A stretch of 38,511 nt of DNA from an uncultured Flavobacteriaceae bacterium (GTDB taxonomy: Bacteria > Bacteroidota > Bacteroidia > Flavobacteriales > Flavobacteriaceae). Made by a program: the position numbers and the translations under genes. Shown here piece by piece: positions 29,388-37,676 of the stretch. The stretch covers positions 1 to 38,511 of the forward strand of contig CAJQMK010000077.1 in the NCBI GenBank assembly GCA_905479415.1. The letters are read 5' to 3'. How positions within the stretch are numbered: position 1 is the first letter of the stretch; every line of letters begins with the position of its first letter. The notes under the pieces were generated by a model that was given only the letters and a program-made list of their open reading frames with translations, ran no database searches and was not told where the DNA came from.

Positions 29388-31859
29388 ATGTCTAAAAATT
29401 TAGTAATTGTTGAATCTCCTGCTAAGGCAAAAACTATAGAAAAATACCTTGGATCAGACTTTAAAGTATCCTCCAGTTATGGTCATATTTCTGATTTGCC
29501 ATCTAAAGAAATTGGGATTGATGTAGATAATGATTTTAAGCCAAAATATATCATTTCAACTGATAAAAAAGATATCGTAAAGCAATTAAAAAAACAGGCT
29601 TCCTCAGCAGATACCGTTTGGTTAGCTAGTGATGAAGATAGAGAAGGAGAGGCTATTGCATGGCATTTATTTGAAAGCTTAAAATTAGAAAAAGCAAAGA
29701 CTAAAAGAATCGTTTTTAGGGAAATTACCAAAAAAGCAATTTTAAATGCAATTGAAAATCCAAGAGAAATAAATTATGATTTAGTTAATGCTCAACAAGC
29801 AAGACGTATAATTGATAGATTAGTTGGATTTGAAATTTCTCCAATTTTATGGAGAAAAGTTAAAGGAGGTCTTTCTGCAGGAAGAGTTCAGTCTGTAGCT
29901 GTTAGATTATTAGTAGATAGAGAAAATGAGATAAATGATTTCGTCCCTGTCTCTTCGTTCAAAATCTCAGGAAAATTTTCTGATTCAAGTGATAATATTT
30001 TAGATGCTCAATTAACTGGAGTTTTTGGCTCTGAAGAAGAAGCTAAAAGTATTCTGGAAAAAAGTATAGATTCAAAATTTTTAATTTCATCTGTTGAAAA
30101 GAAACCGTTTAAAAAATCTTCATCAGCTCCATTTACTACTTCTACCTTGCAACAAGAGGCATCTAGAAAATTAGGATTTTCAGTAAGTCGAACAATGTCT
30201 GCAGCTCAAAGATTATATGAGTCTGGAAATATAACATACATGAGAACCGACAGTGTCAATCTTTCTGATGATGCTTTGAATGCCGCTGGAAAAGTTATAT
30301 CGAAGACTTACGGAGATAATTATCATAAAAGAAAAAAATTTTCAAATAAAAATAAAGGAGCACAAGAAGCTCATGAAGCCATAAGGCCTACCAATTTTGA
30401 AAATAGACAAGTTAATATGGAGTCTGATCAAATTAAATTATATAATTTAATTTGGCTTAGAACTATCGCTTCTCAAATGAGTGATGCAATCTTAGAAAGA
30501 ACCATTTTAAAAATATCATCTGACAAATACGAAAATCAGTTTACTTGTAAAGGTGAGATAATTCAATTTGACGGATTTTTAAAAGTTTATATTGAGGGAA
30601 TTGATAATAATGAAAATGAAGATTCTCAGGGATTGCTTCCAAATCTTCAAAGAGGGACTCGATTATCTGGTTACTCAATTACAGCAACTGAAAAGTTTAG
30701 CCGACCGCCATACCGATATTCTGAAGCTTCTTTGGTTAAGAAGTTAGAAGAATTAGGAATTGGACGCCCATCCACATACGCTCCAACAATTACAACTATT
30801 CAAAACAGAAAATATGTTGTAAAGGGTAGTTATGAGGGACATGAGAGAAATTATAGACAACTTTTCACTCAAAACAATGAAATAAAAACTTCTATATTAA
30901 CAGAAAATACAGGTTCTGACAAAGGAAAATTAGTGCCCACCGAAGTTGGAATGATTGTAACAGATTTTTTAGTTAATAACTTTCAAAATATTTTAAATTA
31001 TAATTTTACCGCCAGTGTTGAACAAGATTTTGATAAAATTGCCAACGGTGATATAGAATGGACTAGTATTTTAAAAGATTTTTATGGTCCGTTTCACTCT
31101 ACAGTTGAGGATGTACAACAAAATGCAACTAGAGAAACTGGAGAAAGAGTCCTTGGAGTTGATCCAGTGAGCGGAAGAAAGGTGAGTGTTAGACTTGGTA
31201 AATTTGGTCCGATGGCTCAAATTGGAACTGTTGATGAAGAAGAAAAACCAATATTCGCAGGGCTACTTCCAGATCAAAAAATAAGTAAAATTACTTTTGA
31301 AGAAACAATGCAGCTTTTTAAATTACCTTGTTATTTAGGTGATTTTGAAGATTTAAGCGTAGAATCGAATGCAGGTAGATTTGGACCATATGTCAAACAT
31401 AATAATGTATTTGTGTCTCTACCTAAAGGCTTAAGTCCTCTCGAAGTATCTTTGGAACAAGCTATCGAGCTGATTTTAGAAAAAAGAAGAATTGACGCTC
31501 CAATTGCTACTTATGAAGGTTATGATATAAGTAAAGGAAAAGGAAGGTTTGGTCCATTTATTAAATGGAACGGTTTGTTTATAAACGTTAATAAATCATA
31601 CGATTTTGATAATCTTAGTGAAAATGATTGTTTTGAATTAATTGAACTTAAAAAGAAAAAGGAAGCTGAAAAGCTATTAAAGGTTTGGGATGATCTTGGA
31701 ATTCGATTAGAAAAAGCTAGATGGGGAAGATTTAATTTAATAAAAGGAAAAGTTAAAGTAGAATTCCCTAAGGGTACAGATTTAGATAAATTTAATGAGA
31801 ATAATGTAGGTGATTACTTTAAAAAGAAAAAACCCAAAAAATCTAAGTCAAAGAAATAG
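29388..31859 (+). CDS. topA: DNA topoisomerase I
   Basis: TopA relaxes negative supercoils via a type IA mechanism. The 823-residue protein has the TOPRIM domain at the N-terminus (VESPAKAKTIEKYLG, and the metal-binding DEDREGEAIAWH near 83), and the catalytic Tyr284 in NITYMRTDS. The C-terminal third contains Toprim_C repeats (KFGPMAQIG, AGRFGPYVKHNN, GRFGPFIKWNG) and no zinc-finger cysteine pairs, as is common outside the proteobacteria. It ends in a lysine-rich tail (KKKKPKKSKSKK) that probably helps bind DNA. The next gene starts two bases after the stop. Confidence 0.97.
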   Translation: MSKNLVIVESPAKAKTIEKYLGSDFKVSSSYGHISDLPSKEIGIDVDNDFKPKYIISTDKKDIVKQLKKQASSADTVWLASDEDREGEAIAWHLFESLKLEKAKTKRIVFREITKKAILNAIENPREINYDLVNAQQARRIIDRLVGFEISPILWRKVKGGLSAGRVQSVAVRLLVDRENEINDFVPVSSFKISGKFSDSSDNILDAQLTGVFGSEEEAKSILEKSIDSKFLISSVEKKPFKKSSSAPFTTSTLQQEASRKLGFSVSRTMSAAQRLYESGNITYMRTDSVNLSDDALNAAGKVISKTYGDNYHKRKKFSNKNKGAQEAHEAIRPTNFENRQVNMESDQIKLYNLIWLRTIASQMSDAILERTILKISSDKYENQFTCKGEIIQFDGFLKVYIEGIDNNENEDSQGLLPNLQRGTRLSGYSITATEKFSRPPYRYSEASLVKKLEELGIGRPSTYAPTITTIQNRKYVVKGSYEGHERNYRQLFTQNNEIKTSILTENTGSDKGKLVPTEVGMIVTDFLVNNFQNILNYNFTASVEQDFDKIANGDIEWTSILKDFYGPFHSTVEDVQQNATRETGERVLGVDPVSGRKVSVRLGKFGPMAQIGTVDEEEKPIFAGLLPDQKISKITFEETMQLFKLPCYLGDFEDLSVESNAGRFGPYVKHNNVFVSLPKGLSPLEVSLEQAIELILEKRRIDAPIATYEGYDISKGKGRFGPFIKWNGLFINVNKSYDFDNLSENDCFELIELKKKKEAEKLLKVWDDLGIRLEKARWGRFNLIKGKVKVEFPKGTDLDKFNENNVGDYFKKKKPKKSKSKK

Positions 31860-31861
31860 TT

Positions 31862-33001
31862 ATGACTAGTGACTATTTATCTCCAATTAGTAAAAAACTT
31901 ATCGATTTTAAAAATAAACTTCCAAACGATAGTTTGGGAAAAAAAATTATTCTGTACAATATTAAGAAGTTTGATTACAACAAAATTGATATTGCTATTA
32001 TTGGAATAAAAGAATATAGGAACTCAGTTGAAGTAAAATCTAATTTTATTGATTTAGATGAATTTAGAAAAGAATTATATTCTCTCTACTATGGTGATTG
32101 GAATGTAAATATTTTAGATTTAGGGGATTTAATAAATGGAGATAATTATAATGATACATACTTCGCATTTAAGACAATAAGTGATGAGTTACTTAGGCAA
32201 AATGTTAAGTTAATTGTTGTAGGTGGGGGAAATGATTTTGCTTTTCCTTTATACCAATCTTTATCTAAAATTCATTCTAGTTTAAATATAAGTTCAGTTG
32301 ATAACAGGTTTGATTTTGGAAAAATTGATAAAGATTTTAATTCCAATTCATACATGTCTAAAATTATATTGGAAAAAAATAATAGTCTAAATCATTTTTG
32401 TAATATAGGTTATCAGACATTTTTAAATTCACAAGAAGAAATGGATTTATTAAATAATTTAAATTTTGAATTTCATAGAATTGGTAAAATAAACAGAGAT
32501 ATTCAAACAGTCGAACCACTGTTAAGGGAAACTCATTTATTATCCATTGATTTTAAGTCAATAAAAGCATCGGAATTAAATTTTGCTCATAATTTTCCTA
32601 ATGGATTTGAAGGTGATCATATATGTTCAATAAGCAGGTATGCGGGACTTAGTAATTCTGTTTCTGCAATTGGTTTCTTTGAACTTTTAAACAGTAGCAT
32701 TTCAAATTCTTTGCTTTCTCAGGCTATTTGGTATTTTGTTGAGGGTTTTTGCTTAAGAATTGAGGAAAATCCAAAATCTAAAAATTTTAAGGGTTACAAG
32801 TATAATGTGCTTTGTGAAGGAATTAATTTAAAATTTTATAACAGTGAATTATCACAAAAATGGTGGGTTGAGTTTTTAGATGATAAACAAGCTAACGCTA
32901 ATAATGAACTTATCCCATGTAGCAAAAAAGATTACTTAAAAGCTTGTGATGAGTTATTATCCGATCGCTTATTACTAGTACTAAGAAGAAATTTATTATA
33001 A
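31862..33001 (+). CDS. Arginase-fold protein with degenerate metal site
   Basis: The 379-residue protein has the arginase/agmatinase/formimidoylglutamase fold, but the metal-binding motifs are altered. GGGHD is replaced by GGGND (Asn124). The D-A-H-x-D motif reads D147-N-R149-F-D151, so the His is Arg. The third motif SxDxD reads S-I-D230-F-K232. Three of the six manganese ligands (His, His, Asp) are therefore missing. Normal hydrolase activity is unlikely; a binding or structural role is possible. There is no signal peptide. It starts two bases after topA, and gldK follows after 70 bp, so a connection with gliding is possible but unproven. Confidence 0.8.
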   Translation: MTSDYLSPISKKLIDFKNKLPNDSLGKKIILYNIKKFDYNKIDIAIIGIKEYRNSVEVKSNFIDLDEFRKELYSLYYGDWNVNILDLGDLINGDNYNDTYFAFKTISDELLRQNVKLIVVGGGNDFAFPLYQSLSKIHSSLNISSVDNRFDFGKIDKDFNSNSYMSKIILEKNNSLNHFCNIGYQTFLNSQEEMDLLNNLNFEFHRIGKINRDIQTVEPLLRETHLLSIDFKSIKASELNFAHNFPNGFEGDHICSISRYAGLSNSVSAIGFFELLNSSISNSLLSQAIWYFVEGFCLRIEENPKSKNFKGYKYNVLCEGINLKFYNSELSQKWWVEFLDDKQANANNELIPCSKKDYLKACDELLSDRLLLVLRRNLL

Positions 33002-33071: not shown

Positions 33072-34505
33072 GTGAAAAACATATTTAACCTCCTTTTTAT
33101 TGTCATATTTATAACAAGTTGTTCAAACAAAAATGATAGGGGTGAACTTGTGGGTGTTAAAGGAACGAAATTTTTCCCTGACAAACCCTCTGGAATGGTT
33201 CTAGTGCCAAGTGGTTCTTTTTTGATGGGTATGGCAGATGACGATATCGCTGGACTTCAAAACGCTCCGATAAGTACGGTTTCTATAAAAGCCTTTTTTA
33301 TGGACGAAACTGAAATTACTAATGGTGAATATAGACAATATGTAAATTGGGTAAAAGATTCTATAGTAAGGCAATCTCTTGCAGTTAGAGCGATTGAAGA
33401 AATTGGAGAATCCCCCTCCCAAGAAGATTTAGACAAAGAAAATAGTATAAATTCTTATTTTCCTTTATACCAACCAATTAGTGAAGTAAGTGATGATGAG
33501 AAAAACGGTTATGAGTTATACAGAGAACAAAATTCGTTTGGAATTAATCCCTATGATAAGAAAACATTTAATTTAAACTTCGACAATGATTTAATTTGGG
33601 AAAGAGAAGATTACCCTGATTTAGCTTATGCTGAAGTTATGGAAGGTCCAATTGAAGGTACGGGTTTTTATTTGCCAGAAGATGAGTCTTACAATGGAGA
33701 AAGAATATTTGACATAAAGAAAATTGTATACAACTACACTACTTTTGATGCTGCTGAGGCTATAAAATATCCTGACAGCGCAAGAAAAAATTTCTTTGTT
33801 CAAAAATCAATTCCTGTTTATCCTGACACAACTGCTTGGATTAAAGATTTTTCTTACAGCTACAACGAGCCTATGCATAATGATTACTTTTGGCACGATG
33901 CATATACCGATTATCCTGTGGTAGGTATTTCTTGGGAACAAGCTACTGCCTTTGCTCATTGGAGAACAATGTATAAAAACAATTATCAAAAGACATTAAA
34001 AAATAGTTCAAGAGTTGCTAGCTACAGGCTCCCAAGTGAGGCAGAATGGGAGTATGCAGCAAGAGGTGGACTAGAATCTGCAACATACCCGTGGGGTGGT
34101 CCATATACAATGGATTCAGAAGGATGTTTTTTAGCTAACTTTAAGCCTAACAGAGGAGATTATGCGGCTGATGAAGCTTTGTATACTGTAGAAGCAAAGT
34201 CATTTTGGCCCAATGATTATGGATTATATAATATGGCTGGAAATGTTTCAGAGTGGACCAGATCATCTTATGATAAAGGTGCTTATCAGTTTGATTCAGG
34301 ACTTAATCCAAATGTTACAGATACCATTAATTTAAGAAAAGTTATTAGAGGAGGATCGTGGAAAGATACTGCCTATTTTTTAAGGGTAAGTACAAGAGAT
34401 TATGAGTACAAAGATGAAAAAAGATCCTATATTGGTTTTAGAACTGTTCAGGACTACTTAGGTGAAGATGGTGGAGGTGATAGAAACCAAAATAAAATAT
34501 TTTAA
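33072..34505 (+). CDS. gldK: Type IX secretion/gliding lipoprotein GldK
   Basis: GldK (PorK in Porphyromonas) forms, with GldN, the periplasmic ring of the type IX secretion system under the outer membrane. The 477-residue protein has a lipoprotein signal with Cys17 (ITSC). The rest is a formylglycine-generating-enzyme-like (FGE/SUMF1) domain: MVLVPSGSFLMGM near 40, ETEITNGEYRQYV near 79, YRLPSEAEWEYAARGG near 318, GLYNMAGNVSEW near 383 and VIRGGSWKD near 417. The catalytic cysteines of true FGE are not apparent, matching a structural role. The start is GTG. Order gldK-L-M-N is standard. Confidence 0.95.
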   Translation: MKNIFNLLFIVIFITSCSNKNDRGELVGVKGTKFFPDKPSGMVLVPSGSFLMGMADDDIAGLQNAPISTVSIKAFFMDETEITNGEYRQYVNWVKDSIVRQSLAVRAIEEIGESPSQEDLDKENSINSYFPLYQPISEVSDDEKNGYELYREQNSFGINPYDKKTFNLNFDNDLIWEREDYPDLAYAEVMEGPIEGTGFYLPEDESYNGERIFDIKKIVYNYTTFDAAEAIKYPDSARKNFFVQKSIPVYPDTTAWIKDFSYSYNEPMHNDYFWHDAYTDYPVVGISWEQATAFAHWRTMYKNNYQKTLKNSSRVASYRLPSEAEWEYAARGGLESATYPWGGPYTMDSEGCFLANFKPNRGDYAADEALYTVEAKSFWPNDYGLYNMAGNVSEWTRSSYDKGAYQFDSGLNPNVTDTINLRKVIRGGSWKDTAYFLRVSTRDYEYKDEKRSYIGFRTVQDYLGEDGGGDRNQNKIF

Positions 34506-34557
34506 ACCATCTATTATAATGATGTTCTAATTTTTGAAATTAAATAATAAAAAAGCT

Positions 34558-35148
34558 ATGGCAAATAAAAGAAAAAAATTCATACCTGATAATTGGATTG
34601 AATTAATGTTTGGAATTGGTGCTTCTATTGTAATTATTGGAGCGTTATTAAAAATCACTCACAGTGATTTTATTTTCACAGGAAACACCTGGTTAACTGC
34701 AGGGCTTATAACTGAGGCAATAATTTTTTCTATTTCAGGTATTCAAGGTTTTATGACAGGAGATTCTTCAGTTGAAGATCCAGGTCTTCAAACAATTGAA
34801 GCTGAAACTCAATCATTACAACAAGCAGTTGATCAAACGGTCAGTGGATTAAGTTCTTTGAATAAAAATTTAACCGCTGCTACAGCTGCAACAGAATCTT
34901 TTTCTGTGCCAAATGATATTAGTGAAAATTTAAATAGCTACAATGATAATTTATCGTCTGCAGCTTCTAAACTTACTAGTATTAATGAATTGTACGATTC
35001 TTTAAATAAATCTTTAAGTGAAGTAAATTCTTCAACTTCTTCAATGAATATCCCCGAAGGTCTGGGTGACGAACTGAATAAAATGAAAGCAACTATCAAT
35101 GAGCTTAATGCTAAGTATTCTTCAATGCTTGAAGGAATGAATAAATAA
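34558..35148 (+). CDS. gldL: Type IX secretion/gliding motor protein GldL
   Basis: GldL (PorL) is the inner-membrane stator-like protein that, with GldM, uses the proton gradient to power T9SS and gliding. From the ATG at 34558 it has 196 residues; a TTG at 34534 would add eight. Two membrane helices (about 17-33 and 43-62) carry the charged residues important in the motor: Lys32 in GALLKITH and Glu53 in GLITEAIIF. The cytoplasmic C-terminal part is coiled-coil-like with repeating Ser/Leu/Asn (LQQAVDQTVSGL, NLNSYNDNL). gldM starts four bases after its stop. Confidence 0.95.
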   Translation: MANKRKKFIPDNWIELMFGIGASIVIIGALLKITHSDFIFTGNTWLTAGLITEAIIFSISGIQGFMTGDSSVEDPGLQTIEAETQSLQQAVDQTVSGLSSLNKNLTAATAATESFSVPNDISENLNSYNDNLSSAASKLTSINELYDSLNKSLSEVNSSTSSMNIPEGLGDELNKMKATINELNAKYSSMLEGMNK

Positions 35149-35151
35149 CAT

Positions 35152-36840
35152 ATGGCTGGAAAATCCGATACTAGACAGAAAATGATAAATATGATGTACC
35201 TCGTGTTTATTGCCATGCTTGCTTTAAATATTAGTAAAGAAGTTTTAGCAACTCTTGGTATTTTAAATGATGACCTAGAATCTTCGATTGTAGAACTAGA
35301 GTCATCCTCAAAAATAAATTACGATCAGATAAGTTCAAACTCTGATAATCTAGATTATAAAATTGCTGCGGAGATGGTAGGTAACGTAAAAAATGTTTCT
35401 GATGATTTTTACAACTTTATTCAAAATATTAAAGATTCTCTAATTAGTTCGGATGAAAATAGTTATTTAAAAGAGGTTAATGTAAAATCAAATAGAGATT
35501 CTATAATTGTTATGACGGATTATCAAATAATGGATAAGTCACAAACTCTTGACGATTATTTCTTTGTCGGTGATTTATATACAGAAAAAGGAGATTTGTT
35601 TCTCAATAAGTTTACTAATTATCCTTTTTCAATTAATGAAACTTTAGACCAAATAACTGATAAAGAATTAAATTCAGAAAAAGAAACTAAAATAAATTTT
35701 GAATTTGGTTCAATTAAAGATGATTTATCAAACAGATTTAAATATTCTGAAAAAGTTGTAACAAGTGAAGGAACAGAATCACCATTTCTGAACTATAATT
35801 TTCAAGGCTTTCCTATGATAGCTTCAATTTCAAAATTAACTAAGATCCAATCTGATATTCGTTATATTGAAAATAAAGTATTAACTCAAATATTAAATGC
35901 TGTTCAAAATAAGGGCCTTAATTTTAATACCTTTCAAACTCTTTTAGAAACTACTAAACCTGTTTACTATACAACTGATGTTATCGATGCGGCTGTAGTA
36001 ATGGGTAAAAAAGATGAAAGTTTTAAGCCTGACGGAGTAGATTTATTTATAAATGGAAAGTCTCTACGTTCTAGTGAATATAAGATTGAAAGTGGTAAGG
36101 TAGTTTTAAATAAAAAATTATCATCTCCGGGAACTTATGAGTTAACCGGAACAATAACTAAAAGAAACGCTGATAGTCAAGAACTAGTATCAATTCCAGT
36201 AAACCAAACTATCGTGGTTATTAAAGAGCCTAACTCAGCAGTAGTTTCTGCTGATAATATGAAAGTTTTCTATAGAGGTTTAAGAAACCCTTCTTCAATA
36301 TCTATTCCAGGCGTTACTGAGAGTTCCATTAGACCATCAAGTAATAATGGTGATTTTATAAAACTTAAAAGTGGTGGATGGGGTGCTGTTCCCACTAGTG
36401 ATTTTTCTAAAAAAACTATGAAAGTTTCTGTTTCTGGTGTTTTAAATGGTAAAAGAAAACAATTTGATGGGGGGGAGTTTAGAATTCTAGAGCCACCACC
36501 TGGACTTGGCTCTGTTAAGGTAAACGATAATTATTATAAGCCTACTCAGAATATTCCTAAGAGATATTTGTCTAATGGAATGATCACAGGCAACAAGCCA
36601 AAAGATTTTTTATACGACTTTGTCATAGAGGTTACTTCTTTTGATATTAAGGTTGGTAATTCACCTTCTAAGTCTGTAAAAGGTAATACTGCCAGAAATA
36701 ATTCAAAGGCTGTTGCTGATATAAATAGTCAGGGTAAAGGAACAGTTGTTAGAATATCAAACATAAAAGCTAATGCAAAAGATGGAGATTTTATAAATCC
36801 TAATTATATTGTAAATGATTTTATATTAATACTAGAATGA
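35152..36840 (+). CDS. gldM: Type IX secretion/gliding motor protein GldM
   Basis: GldM (PorM) spans the periplasm from the GldL motor to the GldKN ring. The 562-residue protein has the conserved N-terminus MAGKSDTRQKMINMMYLVFI with one membrane helix. Residues matching those needed for motor function are Arg8, Tyr16 and Glu30 (NISKEVL). The periplasmic part holds four beta/helical domains; the last ones contain GVNLFINGKSL-like (DGVDLFINGKSL) and FYRGLRNPSSISIPGV. It is about 45-50 residues longer than the best-known GldM/PorM, with the extra length probably spread over loops. It overlaps gldN by four bases (ATGA). Confidence 0.95.
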   Translation: MAGKSDTRQKMINMMYLVFIAMLALNISKEVLATLGILNDDLESSIVELESSSKINYDQISSNSDNLDYKIAAEMVGNVKNVSDDFYNFIQNIKDSLISSDENSYLKEVNVKSNRDSIIVMTDYQIMDKSQTLDDYFFVGDLYTEKGDLFLNKFTNYPFSINETLDQITDKELNSEKETKINFEFGSIKDDLSNRFKYSEKVVTSEGTESPFLNYNFQGFPMIASISKLTKIQSDIRYIENKVLTQILNAVQNKGLNFNTFQTLLETTKPVYYTTDVIDAAVVMGKKDESFKPDGVDLFINGKSLRSSEYKIESGKVVLNKKLSSPGTYELTGTITKRNADSQELVSIPVNQTIVVIKEPNSAVVSADNMKVFYRGLRNPSSISIPGVTESSIRPSSNNGDFIKLKSGGWGAVPTSDFSKKTMKVSVSGVLNGKRKQFDGGEFRILEPPPGLGSVKVNDNYYKPTQNIPKRYLSNGMITGNKPKDFLYDFVIEVTSFDIKVGNSPSKSVKGNTARNNSKAVADINSQGKGTVVRISNIKANAKDGDFINPNYIVNDFILILE

Positions 36841-37676
36841 AAAATTTAATATTTCTTTTTTGTGTATTGTTTAGTGTAAATGCTTTTTCGCAAGCAAACA
36901 TATTAAATGCTTCAACGCCCTCTGAAATTGGAATTAAGAACTTTGATCAAAAACAGTCCGACAGTGATTCTTTTCTTGAATTTGATTACATTGATGAGAG
37001 AGATATTCTTTGGTCAAAAATAGTTTACGAGAAAATTGATTTGAACGAAAAATTAAATTTCCCTTTATTATTTCCTGTTAATGATGAGACCTATGAAAAA
37101 AATAGAAAGTCCCTTTGGAGAATTTTAAAAGAAAATATAATTAATAAACGTATTACAGAGCTGTATTTTGATAGAAATGATAATTTTAAAGATAAGATGT
37201 CCTATAATGATGTTATGGAAGTTGTTTCATTTACAGAACTAATTAACGGAGTACCAACACCTCCTGAAGAATTAAAATCCATTGATATTACTGCCTACAG
37301 AATAAAAGGAATGTGGTATTTTGATAAAAGACAAGGTGAAATGAAATACAGGTTATTAGGGCTTATGCCTGTGGGAAAAAATCTTAAAGATGATGATGGT
37401 AAAAATAATACTGATCTTTTTTGGATATGGTATCCAAGCTTAAGAAAAATTCTTCACCAAGAAATGGTTTTTAATGAAAAAAACAATGCAAATAGAATTT
37501 CTTTTGATCAATTATTAATTTCTAGAAGGTTTAGTTCATACATATATAAAGAAGATAATTTATATGGTGATCGTCCTATATCTTCCTACAAGGATAAAGG
37601 TCTTCAATCAATTTTAGAGTCTGAAAGAATTAAAAAAGAAATTCTTGATTTTGAGCAAGATATGTGGAATAGATAG
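36837..37676 (+). CDS. gldN: Type IX secretion/gliding protein GldN
   Basis: GldN (PorN) partners GldK in the periplasmic ring. The 279-residue protein has a signal peptide (1 to about 18, ending NAFSQA). The mature part has the family pattern: ERDILWSKIVYEKIDLNEK near 54, NFPLLFPV, and the later segment YRIKGMWYFDKRQGEMKYRLLGLMPVG near 164, followed by FWIWYPSLRKILH. The start overlaps the gldM stop. A terminator lies about 235 bases downstream, leaving a long T-rich 3' region. Confidence 0.94.
   Translation: MKNLIFLFCVLFSVNAFSQANILNASTPSEIGIKNFDQKQSDSDSFLEFDYIDERDILWSKIVYEKIDLNEKLNFPLLFPVNDETYEKNRKSLWRILKENIINKRITELYFDRNDNFKDKMSYNDVMEVVSFTELINGVPTPPEELKSIDITAYRIKGMWYFDKRQGEMKYRLLGLMPVGKNLKDDDGKNNTDLFWIWYPSLRKILHQEMVFNEKNNANRISFDQLLISRRFSSYIYKEDNLYGDRPISSYKDKGLQSILESERIKKEILDFEQDMWNR

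Follow-up and report, generated by a model that had tools for sequence, protein, structure and literature searches.

Introduction

Hydrolases of the arginase family typically use two metals, according to PMC11271267. Pseudo-ureohydrolases are nevertheless already known. The arginase-like protein of T. brucei (Hai et al. 2015) is inactive and has no binuclear manganese cluster, as cited in two articles (PMC10820115, PMC11271267), which makes it the closest earlier example of a metal-free arginase fold that stands alone. The latter article also mentions metal-free arginase-type proteins with elusive functions in other prokaryotes. Metformin hydrolase comprises an inactive subunit with the ureohydrolase fold (MetCb, MefH-beta or MfmB), which binds no metal (PMC11271267 and PMC11399263) and provides a precedent for a binding role (PMC11271267).

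Here, we analysed an arginase-fold pseudoenzyme encoded at positions 31862-33001 of a 38,511-nucleotide stretch of DNA from an uncultured Flavobacteriaceae bacterium, hereafter the window. This protein and its homologues are named ALP, and the family adds a variant to the known pseudo-ureohydrolases. Like the T. brucei protein as cited there, ALP has the fold of arginases and lacks a binuclear manganese cluster, but the former is protozoan, whereas ALP is bacterial, occurs across a class, and has an extra domain. MetCb adjoins and works with an active partner, whereas ALP is sometimes found in genomes without any other ureohydrolase. Among the active enzymes, HutG (B. subtilis 3m1r; T. cruzi 2a0m and 4mxr) has a fold similar to that of ALP over residues 15-301 (Z 30.6-32.2), and the T. 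cruzi formiminoglutamase shares with the window ALP an Asn at the first ligand position. In contrast to HutG, ALP has lost the metal-B ligands and gained a C-terminal extension and new invariant residues, and the window protein scores 36.9 bits with the HutG model TIGR01227, far under the equivalog cut-off of 229.15.

In the literature found, in which subscription journals are little covered, nothing joined arginase or formimidoylglutamase with gldK, nothing linked the term "arginase family" with the type IX secretion system (T9SS), and Fjoh_1851/1852 were not named; for gldK, topA and Flavobacterium, there was a single paper, on PorV adhesion. The words arginase and formimidoyl are absent from PMC12635249. 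Within this literature, part of which was represented by titles and the first lines of abstracts, the ALP gene appears to be undescribed. Its importance lies in its strong conservation, in its position beside the T9SS motor operon, and in its breadth, since 207 of the 217 class genomes sampled have a match.

Gene organisation and structural model

The ALP gene of the window is a single intact ORF encoding 379 residues on the forward strand, as are its neighbours, which were scored against NCBIfam cut-offs. Upstream lies topA, encoding DNA topoisomerase I (29388-31859, 823 residues; TIGR01051, above its cut-off). Downstream lie gldK, encoding the T9SS ring lipoprotein (33072-34505; TIGR03525, 555 bits, cut-off 350), gldL (34534-35148; 61.6 bits, just below the cut-off of 68.3), gldM (35152-36840; 248 bits, cut-off 180), and gldN (36837-37676; 230 bits, cut-off 85.9). 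The ALP start is 2 nt past the topA stop at 31859, in agreement with the tight packing described in the initial annotation, and 70 nt separate the end of ALP from the start of gldK. As no obvious signal peptide was seen in the window ALP on inspection by eye, the protein is probably located in the cytoplasm.

The Arginase family of Pfam (PF00491) matches the window ALP (E 7.5e-7, 29.3 bits, cut-off 22) and, at E 0.01, 38 of the 39 homologues from which the profile A1 was built. The AlphaFold2 model, obtained from 51 sequences (pLDDT 87.2, pTM 0.90), exhibits the arginase alpha/beta fold, whose retention had been proposed, and groups with formimidoylglutamases, agmatinases, and arginases in Foldseek and VIA-align. 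The best solved match is T. cruzi formiminoglutamase (Z 32.2, 2.4 A, 274 residues), B. subtilis formimidoylglutamase gives Z 30.6, and all 50 structure matches listed are entries of the arginase superfamily (Z 23.9-32.2). A PDB sequence search with the window ALP alone gave no match; the family profile matched 3m1r at 2.9e-14 and the chain 8ryi_C, named subunit B, at 9.6e-7. As the best database matches of ALP are formimidoylglutamase and agmatinase models, an annotation of its members as such enzymes is easily made and would lead metabolic models to include an activity that these proteins can hardly have.

Residues at the metal-binding positions

Catalytic members exhibit a binuclear set of His, Asp, His, Asp, Asp, and Asp. 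At these positions, the window ALP exhibits Asn124 (codon 32231-32233, first metal-A ligand position), Asp147, Arg149, and Asp151 (motif D147-N-R149-F-D151, 32300-32314), and Asp230 and Lys232 (motif D230-F-K232, 32549-32557), R149 and K232 being at the places of the metal-B His and the metal-B Asp, respectively. Alignments and codons confirm the row exactly as it was first read. For comparison, we used 168 aligned ALP sequences, whose rows share descent and are not independent, a set of 37 sequences (chosen among the stronger matches listed, with 37 class families represented once each), and eight canonical relatives, which are phylum profile matches without the C-terminal extension. Both ligands that bind metal B only, at positions 149 and 232, occur together in none of the 205 ALP sequences (0/168 and 0/37), whereas His149 and Asp232 are present in 8/8 canonical relatives. 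This argues for the proposed absence of a binuclear metal site, and the full His/Asp set, which the initial annotation had suggested looking for in homologues with the same context, did not occur there.

The three ligand losses that had been noted are not equivalent. Asn is found at the position of N124 in the alignment of T. cruzi formiminoglutamase, entries of which are titled "with Mn2+2" (4mxr) and "N114H variant" (4myn), and in one of the eight canonical relatives. As Asn thus occurs in a two-manganese enzyme, only two of the three losses are diagnostic: N124 alone is no argument against a metal in ALP, whereas R149 and K232, as judged from the alignments, are. Among the 168 sequences, position 124 is Q in 124, H in 21, and N in 14; position 149 is R in 63, K in 61, and H in two; and Asp is found at position 232 in 12, none of which has His149, and in none of the 37-family set. 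The idea that Arg/Lys149 replaces the metal universally was considered and dropped: such a residue is present in 124/168 sequences but in only 15/37 of the most diverse set, and for this reason the idea is not claimed for the family.

The remaining acidic residues are more frequently kept. Asp is found at positions 147, 151, and 230 in 151, 145, and 151 of the 168 sequences, respectively, and 20/168 exhibit the full H-D-D-D set of metal A, which makes a single-metal site conceivable and speaks against a purely non-catalytic protein. So does position 253, which in our alignment corresponds to the substrate-binding Glu of arginases: it is Glu in 146/168 sequences and His in the window protein (codon 32618-32620). 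ALP could accordingly be pictured as a mononuclear metalloenzyme that uses metal A only (positions 124, 147, 151, and 230) for another chemistry, and the presence of Asn at the first ligand position of the manganese-binding T. cruzi enzyme is compatible with this. Nevertheless, the basic residue at position 149 would sit in the site in most of the 168 sequences (yet in a minority of the 37), and the enzymes of this family typically rely on two metals (PMC11271267). Moreover, all three metal-site Asp are absent in 14 of 164 rows (11 of family f4 and three of family f6; four divergent rows of family f18, L199-L202, are omitted from this count), the rest of these proteins being conserved. Because of these rows, ALP would not need a metal family-wide. 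The decay of the metal site has taken different courses across lineages. This speaks against any metal-dependent function shared by the whole family, and we consider a mononuclear enzyme unlikely.

Selection and newly conserved residues

The ALP gene is not decaying, as had been stated from its intact frame: the median dN/dS is 0.062 (range 0.011-0.449; 124 pairs of named ALP loci with dS < 1.5). Several residues are nearly invariant. In the stretch encoded at 32477-32527, which comprises R206 and E218-P219-x-x-R222, the residues R206, E218, P219, and R222 are found in 162, 167, 167, and 167 of the 168 sequences and in 36, 37, 36, and 37 of the 37-family set. C255 is present in 161/168, and W290, W334, and C353 are present in 167-168/168 and in 36-37/37. 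Among the eight canonical relatives, R206, R222, and C255 are never found, E218 and W290 are found once each, and P219 is found three times; the part with W334 and C353 is missing from all eight. The constraint on ALP has thus shifted rather than disappeared.

W334 and C353 belong to the C-terminal extension (residues 305-379, encoded at 32774-32998), which comprises 75 residues with beta strands and two helices. Modelled alone, it reaches a pLDDT of 82.5 and a pTM of 0.71. Structure comparison gave no usable known fold for it (best Foldseek E 0.79; best VIA Z 3.9 over 46 residues at 3.4 A), which is no proof of a new fold, and the profile of the extension had no match among PDB sequences.

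At the level of sequence and model, ALP exhibits the features of a pseudo-ureohydrolase, namely a kept fold, lost ligands, and purifying selection. Together with the new invariant residues and the added extension, they agree with the repurposed role that had been suggested. From these data, we infer a loss of hydrolase activity and a binding role. We somewhat favour the explanation that ALP is an ancient, probably cytoplasmic pseudo-ureohydrolase, which selection retains for binding or scaffolding rather than for catalysis. It would have descended from an enzyme similar to formimidoylglutamase or agmatinase, and no sampled member retains both metal-B ligands. Its former active site would have been remodelled, usually with Gln, His, or Asn at position 124 and the three Asp, and in many lineages with Arg or Lys at the place of metal B. 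The fold, the remodelled site, R206, E218-P219-R222, C255, W290, and the C-terminal domain with W334 and C353 may jointly bind a partner. ALP would have kept its old place in the T9SS cluster while serving something that is not confined to T9SS.

Ligand sensing, which had also been suggested, is possible. In a more specific version, ALP would be nearly core to the class and would have changed from an enzyme of nitrogen metabolism to an adaptor gated by a metabolite. The metal-free pocket would bind an amino acid of the guanidino or formimino type, and the C-terminal domain would relay the signal to a partner in the cytoplasm whose gene is in the topA-gldK operon or next to it. Although we regard this version as distinctly unlikely, it would link nitrogen status to envelope and surface functions, and a second partner would account for the retention of ALP in genomes that have lost the T9SS motor.

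Conservation of the gene neighbourhood

The non-catalytic binding protein favoured above has to be weighed against the genomic context, as its long-standing synteny with gldK could reflect a role in T9SS after all. The recurring gene order is topA-ALP-(porP)-gldK-L-M-N, and miaB frequently lies upstream in the opposite orientation. In the order, ALP is followed by a gldK of the same orientation in 59/70 loci (30 of these being short stretches), and the remaining 11 are all from family f4. In the class, ALP has porP and/or gldK as a co-oriented neighbour in 25/37 families, with one genome for each, and at least 60 of the 96 genomes in which both are listed have ALP and a listed GldM no more than 10 kb apart. 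The latter count was made on 141 of the 150 listed ALP rows, which gave 60/95; among the nine rows omitted, only that of G550 has a listed GldM, which is on another contig. The value is a lower bound because G531, G496, and G475 were counted as apart and yet have porP or gldK beside ALP. The order topA-ALP-porP-gldKLMN thus appears to be old, and the position of ALP in the T9SS gene cluster is conserved.

These counts speak for ALP being an accessory or assembly factor of T9SS or of the gliding motor, one that would act in the cytoplasm (for example on GldL) and be useful but dispensable. Two loci, from f18 and f4, point in the same direction. In f18 locus L201, a Mur-ligase gene lies between ALP and gldK, and genes of the PorP, C25-peptidase (PorU-like), and PorV types are found farther out. 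In f4 locus L044 (3572-7769), where gldK is not found, ALP lies beside porG (NF052316, 144 bits, cut-off 130), a uppS-type gene, and the gene of a POTRA protein. Polysaccharide-type genes are found in between in another f4 locus, L048. The OmpA-domain gene beside ALP in f18 had been considered as porE, a label that was dropped because the copy in L201 scores 51.9 bits against a PorE cut-off of 600.

Another frequent neighbour is topA, which adjoins ALP in 26/37 families of the class, with a gap of -4 to 20 nt in 45/65 measurable loci, the window included (starts picked by script). This spacing could reflect a translationally coupled factor that works with TopA in DNA topology. However, neither topA nor gldK is near ALP in the mapped loci of f16, f17, f21, and f22, and topA stays in place where ALP is missing from its usual spot, as in L212 (topA-porP-gldKLMN) and L214 (miaB-topA-gldKLMN). 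We therefore consider a function with TopA very unlikely. Outside the T9SS and topA context, the only other recurring neighbour, in some families, is an NAD-dependent epimerase-type gene (L181, L182, L184, L189, L196, L220, and L251-L253; Pfam checked on L181 alone).

Separation from the T9SS motor

If ALP were a part of the motor, both would be expected to be present and lost together, and they are not. In the genus of G630, a near full-length ALP without stops is found in 60/60 genomes, whereas GldM is found in 52/60. Three of the eight genomes without a GldM match consist of a single contig (G650, G678, and G687), and G666 is only 85% complete. The 52 genomes counted with GldM include G640, in which a remnant persists in a frame of 97 residues with a stop, and G672, in which the gene is split. 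G630 gave no match for PorV and none for the PorP family; in the other seven genomes without GldM, the search covered GldM only. The absence of PorP from G630 says little, as its GldM-bearing sibling G148 also has no PorP match. This series of loss, remnant, and split in one genus offers a natural set for the cost of losing the T9SS motor.

The separation is also observed in the other direction. GldM occurs without ALP, even by profile, in 7/147 genomes of the order, G012 having only a partial match without the extension. In two of the seven, ALP is absent from its place between topA and the gldK cluster. In the class sample of 217 genomes, both are found in 205, GldM only in six, ALP only in two, and neither in four. 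PorV is present in all six genomes with GldM only. The separation should not be overstated: both are present in most class genomes; G502, one of the two cases with ALP only, is probably explained by an assembly gap, since PorV is present there; and both ALP and GldM are absent from 27/147 genomes of the order, many of which are very small.

The initial annotation had proposed a motor-associated part. The old synteny stands in its favour, and the two-way separation from GldM weakens it. From the distribution of the two genes, ALP appears to be an old companion of the T9SS cluster and no obligate part of it, and the dispensable accessory factor described above is an alternative that we consider fairly unlikely. 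The pairs of genomes that differ in ALP or GldM supply natural test pairs for the role of ALP.

Other ureohydrolases in the same genomes

The metformin hydrolase suggests a further alternative to a binding protein that acts without an active ureohydrolase: ALP could serve a catalytic ureohydrolase as its inactive, activating subunit, in the manner of MetCb/MefH-beta. The fold and the type of ligand loss are the same, and another PF00491 protein is encoded in 25 of 30 hand-picked genomes. Nevertheless, ALP is the only PF00491 protein in the other five, which include G010 (99% complete, two contigs) and the genome of the window (81% complete), and the loci L181-L202 have one family match each, with none beside it. 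As ALP is the sole PF00491 protein in these five genomes, a role as a partner subunit is unlikely as a rule, that of a heteromeric partner of an active arginase was rejected as a general rule, and we judge the activating subunit highly improbable.

Phylogenetic distribution

A search with the single sequence of the window ALP found homologues in 113/147 genomes of the order, and the best 80 of 584 confirmed named homologues are largely from Flavobacteriaceae. The 207 class genomes with a match (the class sampled being, we assume, Bacteroidia) were obtained with A1, whose 39 sequences were drawn from these homologues of the order; one of the class genomes, G528, scores only 8.5e-19 and possibly has no full ALP member. 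In the phylum, A1 has matches in 176/345 genomes. Those listed outside the class end at or before position 322 of the 387 positions of the profile, without the part comprising W334 and C353, and thus look like ordinary ureohydrolases. In a tree of 61 rows, midpoint-rooted for drawing only, one branch with support 100/100 splits the eight canonical relatives from the 53 ALP rows.

A mobile or viral origin of the gene was considered and rejected, as the plasmid collection gave no tblastn match to the window ALP and none of the 85 pattern-matching viral stretches encodes a relative. The most divergent members are found in family f18 (L199-L202), where ALP shows strong divergence or shortening in its N-terminal half but can be recognised in its C-terminal half, and where the tree branches are long; the proteins of L200 and L201 comprise 277-278 residues.
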